Assembly: GCA_944384305.1 (NCBI GenBank)
Contig: CALWSW010000004.1
Location: 1-38,747, forward strand
DNA from: an uncultured Christensenellaceae bacterium
GTDB taxonomy: Bacteria; Bacillota; Clostridia; Christensenellales; CALWSW01
Direction of reading: 5' to 3'
Length of the DNA: 38,747 bases
Shown: one piece after another, positions 22,972 through 36,535 of the stretch
Layout: the number at the start of each line of letters is the position of its first letter
Position numbering within the stretch: position 1 is the first letter of the stretch
The notes under the pieces: model-generated
The model's database searches: none
Seen by the model: the letters and a program-made list of their open reading frames with translations, nothing else
Told to the model about the DNA's origin: nothing
Position numbers and translations under genes: made by a program

Positions 22972-25014
22972 TTACTTGGTGATGGTCTCGCCGGCCAGCT
23001 TGCCGAACACCACGGTGTCGACCACAGCGTTGCCGCCCAGGCGGTTGCCGCCGTGGATACCGCCGGTCACTTCGCCCGCAGCCACCAGGCCGGGGATGAT
23101 GTTGCCGTCGGTGTCGAGCACATGGCCTTCGGTGTCGATGGTCACGCCGCCCATGGTGTGGTGCACGCAGGCCGTGCGGGGGGTGGCCACCCAGGGGCCG
23201 TTCTCAAGCTTGCAGTTGAAGAGCGTGCGGCCGAATTCCTCGTCGGCACCGGCGTCCACAGCGGCGTTGAAGTCGTCGACCGTGGCCTGCAGCACCGCAG
23301 GATCGATGCCCAGCTTGCCCGCGAGCTCTTCGAGAGTCTCGCCCACGTAGATGTAGCCGTTCTCCTCGAGGTAGTCGAAGGTGAAGCCGTCGCCCGAGAC
23401 CGCCTCGTCCAGATCGACGAAGTTGCCGTCGCCCGACTCGAGGATGTAGTACATGTCGTCGGTCTGCTCGAACACGGCCAGGCAGATGTCGTCGCGGCGG
23501 CCGTCTTCACGTACGAAGCGCTCGCCCTCGGCATTGATGAAGATGACCTGGTCGGTACCGCTCAGGCAGCGCGGCGGGTACTTGGTCATGGTGCCGTCCT
23601 TCACGGTGCCCAGGTACAGCAGCTGCACCTGATCCATGTCGGTCAGCGAAGCGCCGATCTCCACCGCCATGGTGATGCCGTCGCCCTGCGAGCAGCTGAA
23701 GCGGTTGGTGGTCATGACCTGCGAGAGGTCGCCCCACTTGCCGGAGGTGTTGTATTCCTGCACCATTTCGCCGTTGGCCGAGAAGCCGCCGGTGGCCAGA
23801 ACAACGCCCATGTTGGCGGTGAGGGTGCACTCGTTGCCGAACTTGTCCTCGGCGATGACGCCGGTGATGGCGCCGCTGTCGTCCTGAATGAGGTGGGTGC
23901 CGCTCACCGAGGTCATGATCTCGATGTTGTCGGAATTTTCAATGGTGGCAACATAGGTCGAGATCATGCCCGTGCCCATGTTCATGATGGAAGAGTGGGT
24001 GCGCTGCCACAGCGAGCCGGCGCCCTGGCCGATGGTGTCGGCCGTTTCCCAGCCCAGGCTGCGGATCCAGTCGTAGCCGGCGGTGGCGTTGTAGGTCAGG
24101 GTCTTGACGAGGTCGAGGTTGGCGACCTTATCGCCGTTGATCCAGGTCTGCAGGGCGAACCACTGGTCGCTGTCGAACAGATCGGTGCGGCCGGAGGCCT
24201 TGTAGTCGTCCCACTGGGCCTGCACTTCGGCCTGCAGCGCGGCGTGCTCTTCGTTCACCGGCTCTTCAGCCAGCGCAGCTTCGATGGTGGACTTCACAGC
24301 ATCGGTCATTTCGACCTTGCTCTGCAGCTCGGGGTCGGGATTGTTGTAAATACCGCCGCACACCAGCGTGTCGCCGCCTACCAGGCCGTTCTTTTCCACC
24401 ACGATGACCGAAGCGCCGTTCTGCGAGGCGGAAACGGCCGCGGCAAGGCCGGCGCCGCCGCCGCCGACGACGATGACGTCCGCCGTGGCGTCATGCGCCA
24501 AAGCAACGGGCTCTACAGCGGTCTCCCACTCGTCCACGTTGGCGCCCGCCTGGGTCAGGCAGTCTTCCACAGCGGAGAGGATGGCGTAGCTGGTGATGGT
24601 GGCGCCGGCAACGGTGTCGACACTGAGACTCTGGTGCTCCACGATCTGCGCGGGCACGTAGGTCAGGGGCGCTTCGCCGGCGGCAGTCAGCACATTGCCG
24701 TCCTTGTCCAGAAGGGGCGCGCCAATGCCGGTGGTCTCCTGGTGCTCGGTTACCGTGACCGACTCAATGGCGTCTTCGGTCACCGTCACTTCCACGGTCA
24801 CAGCGCCGTTCATGCCGGTGCCGGAAGCCGTGTAGGTGCCGGCGGTCATCGCCGTTTTGCCGGCTTCGGGGGTCTCTTCCCCGCCGTCGTCCTCAGGGGT
24901 GGCAACGGGGGTGTTGTCGTCGGGTTCCTCCTGCTCGTTGGAGCTGGGGGTGCTGCACGCGGCCAGGCTCAGGCAGAGCAGCGCGGCAAGCAGGATTGCA
25001 AGCAGCTTTTTCAC
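22972..25014 (-). CDS. Exported flavinylated FAD-dependent reductase (FMN-binding plus fumarate-reductase-like domain)
   Basis: A 680-aa lipoprotein (LSLAAC, lipid Cys 20) with an acidic linker to about 55, an FMN-binding domain (about 57-155), and an FAD-binding fumarate-reductase-like domain (about 178-680). VAGATIT at 135-141 is the ApbE flavinylation motif, with Thr139 the likely FMN site. VVGGGGAGL marks the FAD fold. The family residues Arg in REDGRRDD, His in HHTMGG and Arg658 in NRLGG are kept. The IHPT-type His that holds the far carboxylate in fumarate reductase is replaced (VQLLYLG), so the acceptor may be another enoate. GTG start with AAAGGAG. Its FMN is probably attached by the ApbE encoded at 35519-36535. 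It probably reduces an unsaturated acid outside the membrane as a respiratory acceptor. Confidence 0.9.
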   Translation of the reverse strand: MKKLLAILLAALLCLSLAACSTPSSNEQEEPDDNTPVATPEDDGGEETPEAGKTAMTAGTYTASGTGMNGAVTVEVTVTEDAIESVTVTEHQETTGIGAPLLDKDGNVLTAAGEAPLTYVPAQIVEHQSLSVDTVAGATITSYAILSAVEDCLTQAGANVDEWETAVEPVALAHDATADVIVVGGGGAGLAAAVSASQNGASVIVVEKNGLVGGDTLVCGGIYNNPDPELQSKVEMTDAVKSTIEAALAEEPVNEEHAALQAEVQAQWDDYKASGRTDLFDSDQWFALQTWINGDKVANLDLVKTLTYNATAGYDWIRSLGWETADTIGQGAGSLWQRTHSSIMNMGTGMISTYVATIENSDNIEIMTSVSGTHLIQDDSGAITGVIAEDKFGNECTLTANMGVVLATGGFSANGEMVQEYNTSGKWGDLSQVMTTNRFSCSQGDGITMAVEIGASLTDMDQVQLLYLGTVKDGTMTKYPPRCLSGTDQVIFINAEGERFVREDGRRDDICLAVFEQTDDMYYILESGDGNFVDLDEAVSGDGFTFDYLEENGYIYVGETLEELAGKLGIDPAVLQATVDDFNAAVDAGADEEFGRTLFNCKLENGPWVATPRTACVHHTMGGVTIDTEGHVLDTDGNIIPGLVAAGEVTGGIHGGNRLGGNAVVDTVVFGKLAGETITK

Positions 25015-25171: not shown

Positions 25172-25200
25172 AAAAAATGTCCCGCTTGTGAAAGCGGGAC
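25172..25200 (-). terminator. Terminator after the LarA-like gene
   Basis: On the minus strand GTCCCGCTT / AAGCGGGAC (perfect 9 bp, 25192-25200 / 25179-25187) is followed by ATTTTTTCTCTTTTT. It separates the isomerase from the reductase transcript. Confidence 0.8.
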
Positions 25201-25266
25201 AAAAGGAAAAGAGAAAAAAGGGGAGAAAGGCCGGCGGAAGGGCTCATTGCAACACACAAGGTGCGG

Positions 25267-25339: not shown

Positions 25340-26608
25340 TTAGAACAGCTTCTTGGTCAAGTACCCATCCTCGCCGAAGGGCAGGGTCTCTTCGCCCAGG
25401 ATCTCGATGTTCTCCTTGCCCTTGAGTTCGTCGAGCATGGCTTCGCTCACGATGAGTTCGTGCAGGTCGAGCGTGTTCTTGGCAATGACCAGCCGCGCGT
25501 TTTCCTTGGTGATGAGGCGGTTGCAGCAGGCCAGCGCGATTTCGATGGCGTGGTTGTCGTTCTCGCAGATGATGGGCATGAAGCCGCGTTCCAGGAAACC
25601 GGAAGTGATGGTGTTGGTGTAGGTGGGCTCCAGGTCGATCTGCTCGAACATGCGGCGGGTGATGATGTCGGCCATGCCCACGCCGATGGCGTTGTTGTGG
25701 CTTTCTTCGGTGAGGCTGAGGCAGACGATGCGGTAGATGTGCGGGGTGGGCGCGTCATCCAGGTCACGCAGCACAAAGCGGCCGACGATGTTGGGGTCGA
25801 TGCCCGTGCCGCTGATGTTCTTGCCCATTTCGGTCAGAACGAGGGTGTCGATCTCGTCAAAGGGCAAGTGAGGCATGAGGGAACGGGCTTCCTTCAACAG
25901 CTCTTTTTCGCGTTCCATCATGTTTTCAGGTGTGAGAACTTCAATGCGCGCGGTGCGGTCCTGCGCGTTTTCCAAAATGGCCACGCCCATCAAAATGGGC
26001 ATTTTTTCCAGAATGATCTTGGCTGAGCGGGGAATGAGGTTTTCAAGCCCCCAAGTGCCGCGGCGGTGTACGGTGGCGGCGCCCTTCTGTTTGCCCAGGC
26101 CGATGACCATCTGCTTGACCACGCCGCTTTCGATTTCGCCGTGGAAATCGGTGTGGGGTTTTACGCGGTTGCACATGATGATGCCGTCCATACCGTAGGC
26201 GTTTTTATCGAAGTTCACCGGCGCGCCGTCTTCGGTATGGCCGATGACGACGGTTTCCATGGAAGAGAGAATGGGCGCGCCCATGCTTTCTTCTGTGATG
26301 CCGTAGCTCTTTAAAACCTCAACCTGGCCTTCTGCGGTCGCGCCGCCGTGACTGCCCATGGCGGGGATGATGAAAGGCTGGGCACCGGCCTTCTTGATGA
26401 CGCCGACGATGGCCTTGATCATGCGGGAATAGTTGTAAATGCCGCGGCTGCCGGCGGCCACCGCCACGCGCATCCCGGGTTTGATGCGGTCGAGGTAGGG
26501 GGCCATGCCCTCTTCAATGGCGGATTCGGGGTTTTCCAGGAAGGGGAGCTCCTGCGTTTGGCGAATGCGGTACAGGCGGGGCATGAGGGACTGTTCAAAG
26601 GTCAACAT
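25340..26608 (-). CDS. LarA-superfamily nickel-pincer-dependent isomerase (lactate racemase domain, DUF2088)
   Basis: A 422-aa cytoplasmic protein of the lactate-racemase superfamily, whose members racemise or epimerise the carbinol next to a carboxylate using a nickel-pincer nucleotide. Residues matching the LarA site are His87 (GSHGG), His152 (KPH), Lys165 (GVVKQM) and His181 (TVHRRG). The Lys-His spacing of 16 equals that of LarA Lys184/His200, which carry and ligate the cofactor. The AAGSRGI and PAMGSHGG segments fit the cofactor lobe. The ATG at 26606-26608 is favoured; GTG at 26617 is an alternative and the ribosome site is weak. It is divergent from PdxA2 and the DUF1537 kinase, suggesting C2 epimerisation of a four-carbon aldonate. 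larBCE, needed for the cofactor, are not in the window. Confidence 0.8.
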   Translation of the reverse strand: MLTFEQSLMPRLYRIRQTQELPFLENPESAIEEGMAPYLDRIKPGMRVAVAAGSRGIYNYSRMIKAIVGVIKKAGAQPFIIPAMGSHGGATAEGQVEVLKSYGITEESMGAPILSSMETVVIGHTEDGAPVNFDKNAYGMDGIIMCNRVKPHTDFHGEIESGVVKQMVIGLGKQKGAATVHRRGTWGLENLIPRSAKIILEKMPILMGVAILENAQDRTARIEVLTPENMMEREKELLKEARSLMPHLPFDEIDTLVLTEMGKNISGTGIDPNIVGRFVLRDLDDAPTPHIYRIVCLSLTEESHNNAIGVGMADIITRRMFEQIDLEPTYTNTITSGFLERGFMPIICENDNHAIEIALACCNRLITKENARLVIAKNTLDLHELIVSEAMLDELKGKENIEILGEETLPFGEDGYLTKKLF

Positions 26609-26637
26609 AAGAGGCACCAGCTTTCTGTGTGTATAGA

Positions 26638-26667
26638 TTGCAGGGAAGGGACCAAAACCGCTATAAT
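26638..26667 (+). promoter_or_regulatory. Promoter for the pdxA2-kinase operon
   Basis: TTGCAG (26638-26643) and TATAAT (26662-26667), 18 bp apart, giving a leader of about 210 nt before pdxA2. The leader holds two CCTACT direct repeats (26713-26718 and 26745-26750) 32 bp apart, candidates for operator sites. Confidence 0.6.
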
Positions 26668-26881
26668 AGAACAGCGGGGAAAAACAGAGCGGTGTGCAAG
26701 CAGGGTAGTAAACCTACTGTAAGACTAAATTGTTCCGTAAAAATCCTACTTACTGTTATCATATACGAAAATCTTCCGGTGCGCAAGGCGTGTAAGGGGA
26801 GTTTTCGGTTTATTATTTCGTTGTCAAATAGGCGGACTTTCCCGCCGTTCTTGGCACAAAAAAGAAAGGTGGAAAAACACC

Positions 26882-27919
26882 ATGCTGCAACGACCAATGT
26901 TGGCCATTACTATGGGCGACCCGGCGGGCGTTGGGCCAGAGATTGCCTTTAAAGCCCTGCAAGACCCTAAGGTGTACGAAGACTGTATCCCCGTGGTGGT
27001 GGGGGAAAGCGCTGCCTTGGCCCGAGCGGCCGAAGCCTGCGGCCGGCAGGCAGATCTGCGGCTCGTCGCATCCCCAAAAGAAGCGGTGGGAAAACCAGGG
27101 GCGATCGAACTGATCGACCTGGGGCTGCTTGCCGGCAAACCCTGGGCGTGGGGGCAGGTAGACCCCCTGTGCGGCGACATCGCTTTCCGCTGTGTAGAGA
27201 GGGCCATCCAGCTGGCGCTTAAAAACGAGGTGCACGCCGTGGTAACTGGGCCTTTGAACAAGGAAGCCATGAACCTGGCCGGGCACCACTACGCGGGGCA
27301 CACCGAAATCTTTGCAGCCCTTACCGGCACCAAGCAGGTGGGCATGCTGCTCACTTCGCCCACACTGCGGGTCATCCACGTGACCACGCACGTGGCCATG
27401 CGCCAGGCCTGCGATTTGGTCACCACCGAACGGGTGCTCAAGACCATCCGGCTGGCCCGGCAGGCGATGGAAATGCTGGGCATCGAGCGGCCGCGCATCG
27501 CCGTGGCGGGGCTGAACGCCCACTGTTCAGAAAACGGCCTGTTCGGCGACGAGGAAGAAAAATGGATCGCCCCGGCCGTGCGCCTGGCGCAGGGGGAGGG
27601 CATTCTGGCCGAAGGCCCCCTGCCGCCCGACACGGTGTTCGTAAAAGCCATGGGCGGGCAGTACGACATTGTGGTGGCCATGTACCACGACCAGGGGCAC
27701 ATTCCCCTCAAGCTCAGCGGGTTCAAGATGGACCCGGCGACGGGGGCCTTTACTTCGGTGAGCGGGGTGAACACCACCATTGGCCTGCCCATCATCCGCA
27801 CATCGGTCGACCACGGCACGGCTTTTGACAAGGCCGGCAAGGGCGTGGCCAACGAAGAGAGCCTCAAAGACGCCATGCGCATGGCGGTGGTGATGGCCCG
27901 GCACAAGTTTTCTTTATAA
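26882..27919 (+). CDS. pdxA2: PdxA2-type 4-phospho-acid-sugar dehydrogenase
   Basis: NAD- and metal-dependent dehydrogenase of 345 aa in the PdxA family. In the D-threonate pathway PdxA2 oxidises C3 of 4-phospho-D-threonate; the keto acid loses CO2 and gives dihydroxyacetone phosphate. The family start TMGDPAGVGPE (10-20), the metal ligands His170 (VTTHVA), His214 (LNAH) and His269 (YHDQGH), and the substrate loop TGPLNKEAM (122-130) are all present. No other pyridoxal phosphate synthesis gene is near, and the kinase 21 bp downstream is the known partner of PdxA2. The catabolic role is therefore favoured over vitamin B6 synthesis. Ribosome site AAAGGTGG. Divergent from the LarA-like gene. Confidence 0.88.
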   Translation: MLQRPMLAITMGDPAGVGPEIAFKALQDPKVYEDCIPVVVGESAALARAAEACGRQADLRLVASPKEAVGKPGAIELIDLGLLAGKPWAWGQVDPLCGDIAFRCVERAIQLALKNEVHAVVTGPLNKEAMNLAGHHYAGHTEIFAALTGTKQVGMLLTSPTLRVIHVTTHVAMRQACDLVTTERVLKTIRLARQAMEMLGIERPRIAVAGLNAHCSENGLFGDEEEKWIAPAVRLAQGEGILAEGPLPPDTVFVKAMGGQYDIVVAMYHDQGHIPLKLSGFKMDPATGAFTSVSGVNTTIGLPIIRTSVDHGTAFDKAGKGVANEESLKDAMRMAVVMARHKFSL

Positions 27920-27940
27920 ATAAAGAAGGGGGAAGGCAGC

Positions 27941-29215
27941 ATGACCGAACTGTGGATGACGGCCGACGACTTTACCGGCGCTTTGGACAGCGGCGTGCAG
28001 CTGGCAAAGGCCGGGCTGGCAGTGCGGGTGGCGCTCGACGGCGGCCTGCGGGAAAACGCGAATGGCGCGGCCGTGCGGGTGGCCGATACCCAAAGCCGCC
28101 ACCTGCCGCCCGAGGAGGCCAAAGAACGGGTGCGCGCCCAAATGGCCGCGGCGGCCAAAGCCGGTGTTCCCGTTTTATACAAAAAGACCGATTCCACCCT
28201 GCGGGGCAACCTGGGGGCGGAATTTGAGGGGGCGCTTGCGGGCAGCGGCAGGCAAAAGCTGGTGTTTGTGCCGGCCTACCCTGCGCTGGGGCGCATCGTC
28301 ATTGGCGGCAGGGCTTATTTGAACGGCCAGCCGCTTGAAAAGACCGCGCTCGCCCAAGACCCCTTAAACCCTGTGACCACCGGTGTGGTAGCCGATGTTG
28401 TGCGCGCTCAGACCGGCCTGCCCGTGCGTGCCGTTGTACCGGCCGCGCTCGAAGAAGAGCTCGGACGGGAAGGCCCTGGCGTTTTTTGCGTGGATGCCGC
28501 TACAGAGGAAGACCTGGCGCACGCCGCGCAGGCCCTCGCGCCCTGGGCCGAACATGTGGTGCTGGCCGGCTGCGCGGGCTTTGCCGCCCACCTGCCCGGC
28601 TTTTTGCGTGCTCCCCGGCAGGCCTTTGCGCCCGTTGGCGCTCAAAAACGCCTGCTGGCGGTGTGCGGCAGCGTCAACCCCGTATCGCTTGGGCAGGTGG
28701 CCTTTGCCGAAGCGCAGGGCGCGGCGGTCTGCCGCTTGACGCCTGAGGAACTGCTTGCGCCCAGTTTTTTGAAGACCCAAGCCGGCAAGGCGTCGGTGCA
28801 GGCGCTTGCTTGTGCGCTGGAGCAGGCGGGCTGGGCTGTGCTGTGTTCCGCGCGCAGCGGCGGGCATGTGGAAGCGGTGCGCGCTTTGGCGGCGGCGCAG
28901 GGCCTGCCCGAAGGCGGGGCCCACTTGGCGGTTGCCGAGCGCTTGGCAGAGGTTGCTGCGGCGGCCTTTGCCGGGCAAAGGGATTGCGCCTTGGCGGTGT
29001 TTGGGGGCGATACGCTCTTTGCCCTGGCCCAGGCATTGGGGGTTGCTGCCATTGAGCCCTTAGGCGAGCTTTCGCCCGGCGTGGTACTTTCGCGCGCGCA
29101 GGGGGCTCTGGGCGGTTTTGCGCTCGTTTCCAAAGCCGGCGGTTTCGGCGGAGAAGATGTGTTGTGCAGCATCCGGCAGGCGCTGCTGGACGGGGGCGGC
29201 CCCCTGCCGTGTTAA
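27941..29215 (+). CDS. Four-carbon acid sugar kinase (DUF1537, DtnK-like)
   Basis: Cytoplasmic kinase of 424 aa that phosphorylates the terminal hydroxyl of an aldonate; D-threonate kinase DtnK is the type that pairs with PdxA2. The N-terminal sugar-binding domain starts with the signature TADDFTGALDSG (7-18) and has KKTDSTLRGN at about 82. The C-terminal nucleotide-binding domain has FGGDTLFALAQALG (354-367) and SKAGGFGGED (393-402). The AAGGGGGAAGG ribosome site lies in the 21-bp gap after pdxA2, so the two genes form an operon. OtnI and OtnC, which mark the alternative erythronate/L-threonate routes, are absent from the window. D-threonate or D-erythronate is the likely substrate by context. 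Confidence 0.87.
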   Translation: MTELWMTADDFTGALDSGVQLAKAGLAVRVALDGGLRENANGAAVRVADTQSRHLPPEEAKERVRAQMAAAAKAGVPVLYKKTDSTLRGNLGAEFEGALAGSGRQKLVFVPAYPALGRIVIGGRAYLNGQPLEKTALAQDPLNPVTTGVVADVVRAQTGLPVRAVVPAALEEELGREGPGVFCVDAATEEDLAHAAQALAPWAEHVVLAGCAGFAAHLPGFLRAPRQAFAPVGAQKRLLAVCGSVNPVSLGQVAFAEAQGAAVCRLTPEELLAPSFLKTQAGKASVQALACALEQAGWAVLCSARSGGHVEAVRALAAAQGLPEGGAHLAVAERLAEVAAAAFAGQRDCALAVFGGDTLFALAQALGVAAIEPLGELSPGVVLSRAQGALGGFALVSKAGGFGGEDVLCSIRQALLDGGGPLPC

Positions 29216-29246
29216 AACAAAAACGACCCTTCTGTAGCAAAATAAC

Positions 29247-29275
29247 TTTACAACGCGCAGAGCGCGTAGTATAAT
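29247..29275 (+). promoter_or_regulatory. Promoter with internal palindromic operator, cyclase gene
   Basis: TTTACA (29247-29252) and a perfect TATAAT (29270-29275), 17 bp apart. The spacer holds a perfect palindrome ACGCGC-AGA-GCGCGT (29253-29267). A protein bound there would block polymerase, so this is a likely repressor-controlled promoter. The leader to the start codon is about 200 nt. Confidence 0.75.
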
Positions 29276-29480
29276 TACCGCATCAAAGGAAGGCGCGCAG
29301 GGCCCGCGCCAGTTGAACGGGTTCTGCCAGCATTTTAATCCGCTCTGCTTTTTTCGGAGCCTTTCGCTTTTTCTTTTTCTGTTACCGGTCCGACACCGCG
29401 TTTACAAAAACACAGCTTGGCATTGCGGCGCTTTGCCGCTTGGGAGTCACCATTCCATTCAAGAGCAAAGGAGAATTCAA

Positions 29481-30458
29481 ATGGCAAATTATTATGACGA
29501 TTCCTGGTTGACTACAAACCGCTGGGGCAAATGGGGCAAAGACGACGAAGTCGGTGCCATGAACGAAATGACCGACGCCACCAAGCTGGCGGCGCTCTCG
29601 CTTATCAAAAAAGGCAAGGTTTACGACCTTGAGACCGAGCGCTTCAAGGGTATGCCCATTTGGGGCGGCCATTGCGGCTTCGATATGATGTCTTACGCTT
29701 CCCCCCGCGGCCGCCGCAACATGCTCGAGAGCCATCTCGACTCTGAGTTTAGCTGGTACGCTCCCGGCGGTATGTGCGACCCCGCCGGCGCCGATTTCTT
29801 CAAAATGGGCCTGAACACCGAGATCATGGTAGCGCCTTTGCACCTGGGCACCCACATCGACGCGTTCTGCCACTGGACCACCGGTGAGGATGACCACTGG
29901 TACAACGGCTTTACGGGCGACAAGTACTGCACCAACTTTGGCCCCGTGCGCTGCGACGCTTCCAAGATCCCCCCCATCGTCACGCGCGGCGTGCTGCTCG
30001 ACATCGCCGGCTACAAGGGCCTTGATGTGCTGCCCGACAACTACATCATTACCGCTGAGGATGCGGAAGGCTGCGCCAAGTGGGAAGGCGTGGAGCTGAA
30101 GCCCGGCGATTCCGTGCTGCTGCGCACCGGCCAGAAGTGGCCCGCCTGCAACACCGCCGTCAACGCCGGCTTGAGCGTCAACGTTTGCCGCTACCTGGTG
30201 GAAGGCTGCGGCGCCATTCTGGTGGCCGACGACCAGGCTTCGGTCGAAGGCTTCAACGCCGACGGCAGCTCTTCCTGGCCGAACCACCCCCAGCCCGTGC
30301 ACCACTACCTGCTTATCCAGAACGGCGTGCACATCCTGGAGTTCGCTCAGCTCGACGAGCTCGCGGCCGACAAGGCGTATGAGTTCTGCTTCATCTGCCT
30401 GCCCAGCAAGGTTTACCCCGCCACGGGCATGTTCTGCCGCCCCATCGCCATCGTGTAA
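29481..30458 (+). CDS. Cyclase family metal-dependent hydrolase (kynurenine formamidase-like fold)
   Basis: A 325-aa cytoplasmic enzyme of the cyclase superfamily, which includes kynurenine formamidase and isatin hydrolase and cleaves amides or ring amides with a divalent metal. The metal motif HLGTHIDAFCHW spans 121-132, with His121, His125, Asp127 and His131 as ligands. MANYYDDSWLTTNRWGKWG at the start is typical of a longer bacterial subgroup that takes larger substrates. The ATG at 29481 follows AAAGGAG. It has its own promoter with an operator-like palindrome and ends at a perfect terminator, so it is not in the kinase operon, though its position suggests a related role such as opening a lactone. 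That role is a guess. Confidence 0.85.
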   Translation: MANYYDDSWLTTNRWGKWGKDDEVGAMNEMTDATKLAALSLIKKGKVYDLETERFKGMPIWGGHCGFDMMSYASPRGRRNMLESHLDSEFSWYAPGGMCDPAGADFFKMGLNTEIMVAPLHLGTHIDAFCHWTTGEDDHWYNGFTGDKYCTNFGPVRCDASKIPPIVTRGVLLDIAGYKGLDVLPDNYIITAEDAEGCAKWEGVELKPGDSVLLRTGQKWPACNTAVNAGLSVNVCRYLVEGCGAILVADDQASVEGFNADGSSSWPNHPQPVHHYLLIQNGVHILEFAQLDELAADKAYEFCFICLPSKVYPATGMFCRPIAIV

Positions 30459-31736: not shown

Positions 31737-33899
31737 TTACTGTTCCAGCAAAACGATGTCTTTTACATCGGGAACGCCCATGTCAGTCAGGGCGGTGACG
31801 CCGGCCATCCGTCCCATATAAAGGGCGATGGCAAAGCCGTAGCCGCAGCCGGGGTATTCTACATCGATCCAATCGGTAAAAGCCACGGCGCCTGCGGCAT
31901 AAAGGCCGGAGATGGGGTCGCCGTCTGTATCCAGCACTCGGGCTACGGGGTCGGTTTGGATGCCGCCAAAAGAGTCGGTGATGCTTACGGTGCTCTTAAG
32001 AGCAAACAGCCTTTTGCTGCCATCCACAGCAATGGGTTTTAGGTACTGGGCATCTTTGCCGTAATCTTCGTCTACGCCCATAGCGCACAACTCGTTGTAA
32101 CGCGTCAGGGTGGCTTCCAGCGTTGAGGGATCCATTGCCAGCTTTTCGGCCAGTTCCTGAACAGAATCAGCGGCTACCACGTTTGCCCCGGCGGAGCCGT
32201 CTTCATGGGCCGCTATGGCGGCGGCGTAAGCGTCTCCTTCAAAGCTTTCGTCAATGATCTCATAAGCATAGCACCAACCGGCGCGGTTTAAGTCGGCAGA
32301 AACGGCATTGTGGTAATCGTATTCTTTGGTAAACCTTTCGCCCGCAGGTGTGACCATCAGGCTGAGGAACCAGTTTCCGGTATAAGCGCTGGTCAGTGTG
32401 GCAAGAAAAGGCATGTCGTCTTCATAGCGGATGGCTGCGCCGATGGCTTCGGCTGCCAGCATTCCCTCGCCAGTATTGGTATTCGAGCCGTAGTAAGAAT
32501 ACTGGTTTTCCTGCATTGTGCGGTTTGCTGCGATTTTTTCGGGATCGCCAGCAAATCCGCCCGTGGCCAAGATGGTAGAGTCGGCGCTGACCTGCACACT
32601 GGTACCATCTGCCCGCTCGCAGAGCAACCCAGTCACACGGCCGTTTTCTGTGGTCAATGAGGTCATGGGAGTGTTGAACAAGAACTTGACGCCCAGCTCC
32701 AAAGCTCTTTCATATAGAGGGACAATATAATAAGAGCCAATAGAAGTGGTATACTCCTTCAAATCGATCTCGCAGTCGGGGTTTTCTGCGGCAGCCATGT
32801 AAACGGCGGGAAGATCCACTGCGCCATCCCAAATGTTCTGCACACATTCGATGACAGTTCCCTGGTGCATGAAGAACTTCAGCAAGTCATTGGAGCCTTC
32901 CACAAGTCCGCGAATACGAACTTCGTCCACATTCTTGCGGCCGATATCTTCATAAATAAAATCGATCAGGGCTTCGGTGGAAAGATCCGCGTATTCTGTT
33001 CCTGCCGCCATAAGAAGGCCGCCGTTGCGGGTGGAGCTTCCCGTCAGGACACCTGCTTTTTCCACCACGATAACATCTGCTCCGTTATAGGCCGCCTCAA
33101 GAGCTGCCATCAACCCGGCGCCGCCTGCCCCAGCGACCACTATGTCGCACGACAGGGTCTCGTCGGAGCTTTCACGCACAGGTTTTGGACCGTTTTGCAG
33201 CAGAGAGATTTCAACGCCGGAAGCGGCCAGCGCGTTGGCGACTGCTGATTTCAGTCCGTTGCTGGTCACGGTGGCGCCCGTTACCGCATCTACGTTCAAC
33301 GTCTGGTATTTTACCATTTCTTGGGGAAGCAGCTCGATCGGAGCAGTGTCCAGCCCCCAGCCGATCAACTGCGTTTCATTAAACTCCGTTACGTTGATCT
33401 CCTGAATAGAGGTTTTGTCTACCGTCACGGAGACCTTGATCTCACCCATCATGCCAAAGGCAGAGCCTTCGTAGGTGCCGGGAATAAAGGAAAGAGTTTC
33501 GGTTTTTTCAACACCGTTTGCTTGGTCCAGACAATCCTGCACGGCCGCCTTTACGGCGTTGGAGGTAATGGTAGCGCCGGCAACGCCGTCGATGTCTGCG
33601 CCTCCGGCCGCCAATACCTGTTCTTCCAGTGTGGAAAGGGCATTTCCGCCAATGGCGGGAGTCTCGGCGTCGCCGGTCAACACACAGGCTGTCAGCTCAC
33701 CGCCGGCCATCGTGATAGTTGCTGTTACATCTCCGCCAAAACCTTGGCTTGTAGCGGTAAAGGTCTCCTCGGCGACGGCGTCGGAGCCCGGCTCCTCGGC
33801 TGCAGGCGTCGTGGTAGGCGCGGGATTACTTTGGGCGCAACTCATCAGTCCAAGGCATAAGCAGATGGCTAAAAAGCAGGCCAGTATACGTTTGATCAT
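31737..33899 (-). CDS. Exported flavin reductase with two FMN-binding domains
   Basis: A 720-aa lipoprotein (GLMSC, lipid Cys 21). Two FMN-binding domains follow, with flavinylation motifs VAGATIT and VTGATVT whose acceptor Thr residues are 110 and 210. An FAD domain (VAGAGGAGLMAA, about residue 258) of the fumarate-reductase-like type completes the chain. The family catalytic residues are not kept: the HHTMGG position reads TDSFGG, the NRLGG arginine position reads YPGCGYGFA, and the ITTRD-type arginine position reads YDYHNA. It therefore should not reduce fumarate and probably acts on a different, perhaps neutral, enone-like acceptor. ATG with GGAGGAGTAAGGA upstream. ApbE at 35519-36535 is the probable FMN source. 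The regulator is probably the LysR at 30733. Confidence 0.9.
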   Translation of the reverse strand: MIKRILACFLAICLCLGLMSCAQSNPAPTTTPAAEEPGSDAVAEETFTATSQGFGGDVTATITMAGGELTACVLTGDAETPAIGGNALSTLEEQVLAAGGADIDGVAGATITSNAVKAAVQDCLDQANGVEKTETLSFIPGTYEGSAFGMMGEIKVSVTVDKTSIQEINVTEFNETQLIGWGLDTAPIELLPQEMVKYQTLNVDAVTGATVTSNGLKSAVANALAASGVEISLLQNGPKPVRESSDETLSCDIVVAGAGGAGLMAALEAAYNGADVIVVEKAGVLTGSSTRNGGLLMAAGTEYADLSTEALIDFIYEDIGRKNVDEVRIRGLVEGSNDLLKFFMHQGTVIECVQNIWDGAVDLPAVYMAAAENPDCEIDLKEYTTSIGSYYIVPLYERALELGVKFLFNTPMTSLTTENGRVTGLLCERADGTSVQVSADSTILATGGFAGDPEKIAANRTMQENQYSYYGSNTNTGEGMLAAEAIGAAIRYEDDMPFLATLTSAYTGNWFLSLMVTPAGERFTKEYDYHNAVSADLNRAGWCYAYEIIDESFEGDAYAAAIAAHEDGSAGANVVAADSVQELAEKLAMDPSTLEATLTRYNELCAMGVDEDYGKDAQYLKPIAVDGSKRLFALKSTVSITDSFGGIQTDPVARVLDTDGDPISGLYAAGAVAFTDWIDVEYPGCGYGFAIALYMGRMAGVTALTDMGVPDVKDIVLLEQ

Positions 33900-34418: not shown

Positions 34419-34850
34419 ATGAAAGAGTTCTTCAAAAGAAAAGATGCCCTGATCATCGGCATTATCGTCCTGATGGTCGCCGTCATCGCCGCTGTCATCC
34501 TGGTCATTGGCACCAGCGGCGGAACCAAGGCCCACCTGGCCATCTACGTGGGCGACGTGCTCTACCGCGAGGTCGAGCTGGGCGAAGAGCGCACCGTCAC
34601 GGTCAACCAGGGCCAGGGCGTCATCAACAAAGTGCACGTCACGCGCGACGGCTTTTATATGGAAAGCTCGTCCTGCGACAATCAGGACTGTGTGCACCAG
34701 GGCGAGGTCACGCTGGATAATTACGAGGACCGCGTGCTCATGAACTGGATTGTCTGCCTGCCCAACCAGGTCACCCTGGAGCTGGTAGTGGACGACGGCG
34801 CGGAAGAGCCGCCCATTGAAGAAGTGGAAGACGGGACCGCCGAGGAGTAA
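34419..34850 (+). CDS. NusG domain II-containing membrane-anchored protein
   Basis: A 143-aa protein with one N-terminal transmembrane helix (about 10-31) and an extracytoplasmic NusG-II-like beta domain. The family cysteines are seen as SSCDNQDCVHQG (Cys86, Cys91) and IVCLPNQV (Cys113), followed by an acidic tail. Function is not established; in Firmicutes it is repeatedly found beside Gx transporter, ApbE and FMN-binding genes linked to extracytosolic electron transfer. The GGAGG at 34401-34405 is 13 bp from the ATG, rather far. It is first of three tightly packed genes, with the Gx gene starting 6 bp after its stop. Confidence 0.87.
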   Translation: MKEFFKRKDALIIGIIVLMVAVIAAVILVIGTSGGTKAHLAIYVGDVLYREVELGEERTVTVNQGQGVINKVHVTRDGFYMESSSCDNQDCVHQGEVTLDNYEDRVLMNWIVCLPNQVTLELVVDDGAEEPPIEEVEDGTAEE

Positions 34851-34856
34851 GCATCC

Positions 34857-35522
34857 ATGAAACGCAGCGCGCCGCTTTCGGCAAGATCCATCGCAATGTT
34901 CGGCCTGCTCACGGCCATCGCGCTGGTGCTGGGCTACATTGAAAGTTTTATCCCCATTACGCAGGGCATCCCCGGCGTCAAGCTGGGGCTGTCCAACACC
35001 GTGCTGCTTTACGCCCTGTACGTTTCGGGCAGCGCGGCGGGCGCGTGGCTCTTAATGGTTTTAAAGGTCGTGCTTTCCGGCCTTTTATACGCCGGTGTGC
35101 AGGCCATGATCTACAGCTTTGCCGGCGGTATTTTGAGCCTTTTGGTCATGATGCTCATCAAGCGCGTGCCGGGCGTCTCCATTGTGGGGGTATCCATTTG
35201 CGGGGCTGTGGCGCACAATGTTGGGCAGATCGTTGCGGCAAGCCTGGTCGTAACATTGCCCGCGCTGGTGCTGCTGCGTTACTTTGGCATCTTGCTGGTG
35301 TGCGCGCTCGTCACCGGCCTTTTGACCGGTATTGTCGCCAAAAGTGTGTTCAAGGCTTTGGCGGCTGGCGGCGTGCTTAAATCCGACCCCACGGTTTCTC
35401 CCGCCAAAAAGAAAAAGGAAGCGCAAAAGAGCGCCTCTGGCCAGGCGGACGCTGCGGAAGAAAAAGCGCCCCAAAGCGCCCGGCCTGCCGATCTACCGAA
35501 AAAGGAAAGTGACCCTTCATGA
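34857..35522 (+). CDS. Gx transporter family membrane protein (Hpre_diP_synt_I)
   Basis: A 221-aa integral membrane protein with about five hydrophobic segments and a long, charged, probably cytoplasmic tail (about 170-221). The segments LTAIALVLGYIESFIPI and GIPGVKLGLSNTVLLYAL are the marks of the family once labelled heptaprenyl diphosphate synthase component I. The fold resembles ECF-type substrate-binding components. Its recurring partners (NusG-II, ApbE, flavinylated reductases) suggest transport of a flavin, quinone precursor or similar, but this is unproven. Its stop overlaps the apbE start by four bases. Confidence 0.85.
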   Translation: MKRSAPLSARSIAMFGLLTAIALVLGYIESFIPITQGIPGVKLGLSNTVLLYALYVSGSAAGAWLLMVLKVVLSGLLYAGVQAMIYSFAGGILSLLVMMLIKRVPGVSIVGVSICGAVAHNVGQIVAASLVVTLPALVLLRYFGILLVCALVTGLLTGIVAKSVFKALAAGGVLKSDPTVSPAKKKKEAQKSASGQADAAEEKAPQSARPADLPKKESDPS

Positions 35523-36535
35523 ATCACAGCAATTCCCGGCGCGCGTTTTTGCGCCGCGCCGCAGCGGTCGTGCTGGCAGCGGCACTGCTGCTTGCGGGCT
35601 GCGCCGCAGCAGAAGAACCCGCCCCCCAGCAAAACTCCGCCGTCGGCTTCTATTTCGATACCGTCATCACCCTTTCTGCTTACTGCGACCAAGAACTGCT
35701 CGACGAGGCGCTGGCGCGGTGCGAGTACTACGAAAACACCCTGAGCAAAACCGTGGAAGGCAGCGATGTGTGGAACATCAACCACGCCGGCGGCCAGCCT
35801 GTTACGGTTTCGGACGATACCATTGCCCTTTTGGAGACGGCACTGCGCGCCAGCGAGCTTTCTGACGGCGCCTTCGACGTCACCATCGCGCCGGTCACAG
35901 CGCTGTGGGACTTTACCTCGGGTGAAGCCGTTTTGCCGGACGATGCCGATATTCAGGCCGCTCTGCCCTTGGTGGACTACACGCAGATCAAGGTAGAGGG
36001 CAACACCGTCACCCTGCCCGCGGGCATGATGATCGACCTGGGCGGTATTGCCAAAGGCTATATTGCCGACGAACTGGCAGCCTTTTTGCGCGAGAAGGGC
36101 GTTACCAGCGCCGATTTGAACCTGGGCGGCAACGTCATTACCATTGGCCGCAAGCCCGACGGCACGGCCTGGCGCATTGGGGTGCAGAACCCCCACGGCT
36201 CGCGGGACGAGTCCATCCTCATCCTCAACCTCGTCGACGCCACGGTGGTCACCAGCGGCAACTACGAGCGCTACTTTGAGCTCGACGGCGTGCGCTACCA
36301 CCATATTTTAGACCCCGAGACCGGCTACCCCGTGAGCAACGGCCTGGCTTCGGTCAGCATCATCACCCAAAGCTCCATGTACGCCGACGCGCTCTCTACT
36401 GCCTGTTATGTTCTTGGCCTGGAAGAGGGCATGGCGCTCATTGAAGAGCTGGAAGACGTGGAGGCCATCTTCATCACCGAAGATCTGGAGGTCCACTATT
36501 CCTCCGGCGTGGTGGTCAACGATTCCATCAATTAA
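35519..36535 (+). CDS. apbE: FAD:protein FMN transferase (flavinyltransferase)
   Basis: A 338-aa exported, lipid-anchored enzyme that uses FAD to attach FMN by a phosphoester bond to Thr in GAT motifs of exported proteins, with Mg2+. The signal has a lipobox (LLLAGC, Cys28) and, before it, SRRAFLR, which resembles a twin-arginine motif. Family signatures are MIDLGGIAKGYIADEL (171-186), LNLGGNV (201-207), LDPETGYPV and DALSTACYVLG, the last holding metal-binding residues. It is the last gene of the operon, coupled to the Gx gene by ATGA. Obvious clients in the window are the two exported reductases (three GAT sites). Confidence 0.93.
   Translation: MNHSNSRRAFLRRAAAVVLAAALLLAGCAAAEEPAPQQNSAVGFYFDTVITLSAYCDQELLDEALARCEYYENTLSKTVEGSDVWNINHAGGQPVTVSDDTIALLETALRASELSDGAFDVTIAPVTALWDFTSGEAVLPDDADIQAALPLVDYTQIKVEGNTVTLPAGMMIDLGGIAKGYIADELAAFLREKGVTSADLNLGGNVITIGRKPDGTAWRIGVQNPHGSRDESILILNLVDATVVTSGNYERYFELDGVRYHHILDPETGYPVSNGLASVSIITQSSMYADALSTACYVLGLEEGMALIEELEDVEAIFITEDLEVHYSSGVVVNDSIN

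Follow-up and report, generated by a model that had tools for sequence, protein, structure and literature searches.

The window, that is, the complete 38,747-nt stretch of DNA from an uncultured Christensenellaceae bacterium that we analysed, contains a divergent unit in which a larA-like gene faces pdxA together with genes for a DUF1537 kinase and a cyclase-family hydrolase. We propose, with a probability of roughly 0.58, that this cluster serves the catabolism of D-series four-carbon acids and that its LarA protein, a member of nickel-pincer isomerase group 22, links D-erythronate to D-threonate by C2 epimerisation upstream of the kinase and PdxA2 steps. If true, this would explain the use of D-erythronate by bacteria without the erythronate dehydrogenase branch, and it would provide a testable substrate for group 22; this LarA group is large, and our literature search found no activity reported for it.

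Gene organization of the cluster

All four genes named in the original prediction were found in place (Table 1), and the arrangement goes beyond chance, since related loci repeat it (see below). A terminator-like hairpin sets larA apart from the flavin reductase gene at 22972–25014 (− strand). This reductase was considered as an operon partner of larA and rejected, as the hairpin intervenes and no reductase follows larA in the related locus L121. At the other end of the unit, the cyclase gene probably starts at ATG 29481, judging from the AAAGGAG site that precedes it; a start at 29313 was set aside in its favour. The spacer of the near-consensus promoter between the kinase and cyclase genes (+ strand) contains CGCGCAGAGCGCG, and the cyclase gene may be transcribed separately from this promoter-like site.

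No transporter gene adjoins the cluster in the window. The cluster is flanked by LysR genes and by two flavin reductase genes, the one mentioned above and another at 31737–33899 (−), both of whose products combine FMN_bind and FAD_binding_2 domains, are flavocytochrome-c like and have lipoprotein-like N-termini. Genes for an ApbE protein, a Hpre_diP_synt_I protein and a NusG_II protein occupy 34419–36535, which, together with the reductases, suggests a respiratory flavoprotein system.

Table 1. Features of the divergent larA/pdxA unit and their positions in the window
Feature	Coordinates	Strand	Basis
Terminator-like hairpin past larA	25178..25201	−	10-pair stem followed by a T run; consensus match only
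larA-like gene, NCBIfam group 22, proposed tetronate C2-epimerase	25340..26617	−	NF052515, Lar_N, fold match to LarA/Mar2
Divergent larA/pdxA intergenic region, 264 bp	26618..26881		Direct sequence reading
PdxA2-type 4-phospho-D-threonate dehydrogenase	26882..27919	+	PdxA family, 357.6 bits; PdxA2-type PDB matches
DUF1537 (SBD_N/NBD_C) acid-sugar kinase, nearest to the D-threonate kinase family	27941..29215	+	Domains, PDB match, motif
Promoter-like TTTACA-17-TATAAT before the cyclase gene	29247..29275	+	11/12 match; consensus match only
Cyclase-family (PF04199) hydrolase, HxGTHxDAxxH, possible lactonase	29481..30458	+	PF04199, 67 bits; relatives near larA

The larA product belongs to group 22 of the LarA superfamily

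The LarA-like protein scored 533.6 bits against NF052515 (NPN_iso_grp_22, nickel pincer isomerase group 22; cut-off 400) and carries a Lar_N domain. Its conserved part starts at ATG 26584; residue numbers given here are counted from the first GTG of the gene. PDB searches with the single sequence or a profile matched no LarA entry. When the AlphaFold model (mean pLDDT 92.9) was used for a fold search, all 18 PDB matches at E ≤ 0.001 were LarA-family entries, headed by 9eia (E 5.5e-12) and 7s91 (E 1.1e-11). The TM-scores to PDB LarA entries were 0.43–0.56, as might be expected if the predicted structure is that of a distant LarA member or adopts another domain orientation, and identity between group 22 and solved LarA members was 11–19% over structure-aligned columns.

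LarA enzymes invert C2 through a hydride transfer coupled to proton transfer, in which two histidines take part (PMC12611868). Six residues (R58, H90, H155, K168, H184 and K266) are identical in every one of the 117 homologues; R58, K168 and H184 correspond to the pincer-binding Arg, Lys and His, and H90 and H155 to the catalytic histidines. The six include the four that the original prediction had counted as His87, His152, Lys165 and His181 from an ATG three codons downstream. The predicted LarA-like Lys-His spacing also proved correct, at 16 residues, as in LarA (K184-H200) and GntE2 (K164-H180) (PMC7583248). The Asp72/Arg75 cofactor motif of LarA reads GSRG in the window protein, and the Asp72 position is not conserved. 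Within the phylum, group-22 larA genes were present in 86 of 398 genomes (E ≤ 1e-60).

PdxA, the kinase and the cyclase-family protein

Both partner assignments of the original prediction hold by homology. The window PdxA matched the PDB entries 2hi1, 4jqp and 6e85 with 303–308 bits and other PdxA entries with 154–179 bits, a margin of about 125 bits or more; of its best matches, 2hi1 is named dehydrogenase 2 and 6e85 D-threonate 4-phosphate dehydrogenase. On the curated model NF002891, it reached 348 of 583 bits. The signature gene of the vitamin B6 route is pdxJ (PMC9997740), and PdxJ was found neither in the incomplete window genome (G000) nor in 13 of a further 14 genomes that we searched. 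With PdxJ absent from 14 of 15 genomes, this PdxA lacks an obvious partner in vitamin B6 synthesis, and a vitamin B6 role of this pdxA was rejected on the basis of the PdxA2-type PDB matches and the missing PdxJ.

The kinase contains both DUF1537 domains (175 and 76.5 bits) and the motif KKTDSTLRG, with 4xfm/4xgj as its best PDB match. On the D-threonate kinase model NF047819, it scored 219 of 450 bits, below the cut-off, and homologues in L083 and L047, at 330–346 bits, are likewise under the cut-off of 450. By sequence, D-threonate kinase is its nearest family, and the protein is filed here only as a DUF1537 kinase. The metal site of the cyclase-family protein reads HLGTHIDAFCH. Its gene probably belongs to the unit, because counterparts 66–67% identical lie near larA in L041 and L121. 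The part that the original prediction had itself called weaker, a cyclase-family enzyme opening the lactone, is thus better supported insofar as the gene joins larA in two related loci, but a lactonase role is still a guess.

The larA–kinase–pdxA neighbourhood recurs across phyla

The recurring neighbourhood of LarA, DUF1537 kinase and PdxA anticipated by the original prediction is indeed widespread. We surveyed 117 group-22 loci, taken from three sources: named loci, whole-genome searches and the window. In 17 of the 117, larA had both a kinase and a PdxA gene at a distance of no more than about 8 kb. This fraction is not unbiased, as the named loci were those that matched the query best. We left out the PdxA calls in L044 and L100 as probable spurious overlaps. 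The kinase or PdxA gene was ≤300 bp from larA in 15 of these 17 loci, and the trio spans Bacillota, Bacteroidota and Actinomycetota. Several loci are operons, with the order larA-kinase-pdxA (L053, L062), with a TRAP transporter (L048, L052, L083), or with a GntP permease, larE, a sigma-54 activator, kinase, pdxA and larA (L047, L051, L065, from Bacillus-group strains). The most complete gene run (L083:340-14430) holds a sigma-54 activator, the DUF1537 kinase, the TRAP transporter, pdxA and group-22 larA; farther along come aldehyde and iron alcohol dehydrogenases and then larE, larB and larC, each above its NCBIfam cut-off. This run would make a good construct for an assay.

One relative of the window locus is L121 (genome G420), whose larA is 77% identical and whose genes stand in the same divergent order, larA / pdxA-kinase-cyclase. 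In this locus (L121:2857-5072), pdxA and the kinase gene are each split over two frames, while the reading frames of larA and of the cyclase gene are intact; the split genes may reflect a decayed copy or an assembly error. In the LarA tree, the window groups with L121 and L041 at a starred node, and deeper branches are weakly supported. Sixteen of the 17 kinase/PdxA loci fall within one weakly supported part of this tree. When loci with only a kinase or only PdxA are included, 20 of 37 loci in that part have such a neighbour, whereas elsewhere 1 of 80 does (Fisher p 1.6e-11, for a post hoc grouping). Across the tree, the presence of any kinase/PdxA neighbour required 12 label changes, against a shuffled mean of 19.6. 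Taken together, the gene neighbourhoods provide strong comparative support for a link between LarA, the kinase and PdxA.

Other group-22 larA genes neighbour IlvD/Edd or altronate dehydratases, FGGY kinases or SDRs, so a link to C4 acids does not extend to all of group 22. In a separate group-22 branch (L126, L114, L127, L133), larA accompanies an SDR dehydrogenase gene and larC was not found in the genomes; this pairing may point to another substrate.

Cofactor supply

The genes larB, larC and larE, expected in the genome under the original prediction, were not found: none reaches its cut-off in the window genome (80.6% complete, 186 contigs), and the same holds for G420. In G398, a genome of the same family, a single contig carries larE and larB as well as the start of larC, and loss of larBCE through incompleteness of the window assembly is plausible. 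Given the 80.6% completeness and the same-family genome with all three genes, their absence is weak counter-evidence.

The window genome is one of 14 of 51 group-22 genomes from which larC is missing, and among the genomes tested again, those without larC also proved to lack larB and larE. These larBCE-less genomes include two single-contig assemblies, G190 and G021, the latter with three group-22 copies; further cases are G062, G101, G135, G165, G007, G127, G065, G392 and others, several of them covered by L122–L133. L057, from a Domibacillus iocasae strain, likewise comes from an isolate that lacks larC. Many genomes with group-22 larA are thus without the known cofactor pathway. The published reverse case is larBCE without larA (PMC11796402). 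The cofactor-binding residues are invariant in the group-22 proteins from larBCE-less genomes, too, and larC is present in the genomes of 12 of the 17 kinase/PdxA loci. Tentatively, and with considerable doubt, we entertain the idea that group-22 LarAs act without larBCE in many bacteria, their nickel-pincer cofactor, or one that replaces it, coming from an undescribed source, and that the window protein would do so as a D-erythronate/D-threonate 2-epimerase feeding the DUF1537 kinase and PdxA2.

Proposed pathway and alternatives

D-Erythronate is (2R,3R) and D-threonate (2S,3R), so that C2 is their sole difference. PdxA2 oxidises C3, and after loss of CO2 the former C2 is the CH2OH group of dihydroxyacetone phosphate (DHAP), with both stereocentres gone. 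Since the two acids share the R configuration at C3, and since C2 ends as CH2OH, a single kinase/dehydrogenase pair can serve for both epimers. With a C2-epimerase, the D-threonate pathway would therefore be extended to D-erythronate. In the pathway that we envisage, the cyclase-family hydrolase might open the corresponding lactone. Judging from its family, residues and context, the group-22 LarA, with the nickel-pincer nucleotide at K168 and H184 and with H90 and H155 as acid/base pair, would then move a hydride off and onto C2, interconverting D-erythronate and D-threonate. From their families, the kinase would yield 4-phospho-D-threonate and PdxA2 would oxidise C3 of this product, which would decarboxylate to DHAP.

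Our literature search for tetronate C2-epimerases returned 4-deoxy reactions only. LarA enzymes C2-epimerise 4-deoxy-D-threonate/4-deoxy-D-erythronate (PMC11770544); in the passages covered, no report of 4-hydroxy acids as LarA substrates was found. The original prediction of a possible new pathway is fair with regard to the substrate, but LarA epimerisation of 4-deoxy C4 acids was already published (PMC11770544). The proposed chemistry is a modest extension of this reaction, and we consider it sound to infer that a group-22 LarA epimerises D-threonate and D-erythronate at C2. Supplementary Table S1 of PMC7583248 gives gene contexts for each LarA group, and a kinase/PdxA neighbourhood of group 22 may already be among its entries.

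Could LarA instead be a general C5/C6 aldonate C2-epimerase, with the kinase and PdxA genes nearby marking a broader sugar-acid island and not a linear route? GntE groups do epimerise D-gluconate/D-mannonate (PMC7583248), and among the 80 named loci plus the window, IlvD/Edd dehydratases occur in 12 and altronate dehydratase in 10. We nevertheless think this unlikely, since the window's part of the tree is enriched in kinase/PdxA neighbours and is distinguished from the remaining group 22 at F341, R344, G190 and D157, and neither in the window nor in L121 did a C5/C6 sugar-acid dehydratase turn up next to these genes. Quite unlikely, in our judgement, is that the group-22 protein here is no nickel-pincer enzyme at all (apo or with another cofactor) and that the kinase and PdxA2 carry out plain D-threonate degradation. 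The failure to find larB, larC and larE in the window genome speaks for it, as do the 14 of 51 genomes without larC, where larB and larE were also missing whenever checked, single-contig G021 and G190 included. The invariance of the pincer-binding and catalytic residues (117/117, larBCE-less genomes among them), the larC genes accompanying 12 of 17 kinase/PdxA loci and the clustered larE-larB-larC in the same-family genome argue against it.

Two further readings keep the kinase and PdxA2 together. DUF1537 members phosphorylate 4-hydroxythreonine (Thiaville 2016, as cited in PMC7954711), so the pair could recycle 4-hydroxy-L-threonine, with larA as an unrelated neighbour. This is very improbable, as no PdxJ that could use the product was found in the genome, the substrate has no C2 hydroxyl for LarA, and related operons carry GntP or TRAP permeases. 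Alternatively, phosphorylation could come first, LarA converting 4-phospho-D-erythronate to 4-phospho-D-threonate; the gene content would be identical, and sequence gives no order of the two steps, yet the LarA substrates reported in PMC7583248 and PMC11770544 are unphosphorylated 2-hydroxy acids, which makes this order highly unlikely. We tentatively favour epimerisation of the free acids ahead of the kinase.

Comparison with known systems

A route that breaks down D-threonate with a DUF1537 kinase plus PdxA2 was reportedly described by Zhang et al. (PNAS, 2016). Like the window, this route has both enzyme families in tandem, with DHAP as the expected product; we know of no LarA-type epimerase or cyclase-family hydrolase in it. 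The route is cited in PMC9997740 and PMC7954711. The D-erythronate/L-threonate route, made up of DenD or LtnD, OtnI, OtnK and OtnC (L-threonate branch in PMC12540250), resembles the window in taking C4 acid sugars to DHAP via a DUF1537 kinase. It oxidises C2 and then isomerises, whereas the window pathway would invert C2 and use the PdxA2 branch. GntE, a D-gluconate 2-epimerase of the same superfamily, parallels our proposal as a sugar-acid C2 epimerase, but it acts on a hexonate and belongs to LarA groups 19/20. To our knowledge, GntE has no kinase/PdxA2 partners. With the LarA superfamily, as described in PMC7583248 and PMC11770544, group 22 has in common the fold, the invariant His/His/Lys/His residues and, as proposed here, the C2 hydroxy-acid chemistry; tested members epimerise 4-deoxy tetronates, and group 22 differs from the superfamily by its 11–19% identity and its GSRG motif.
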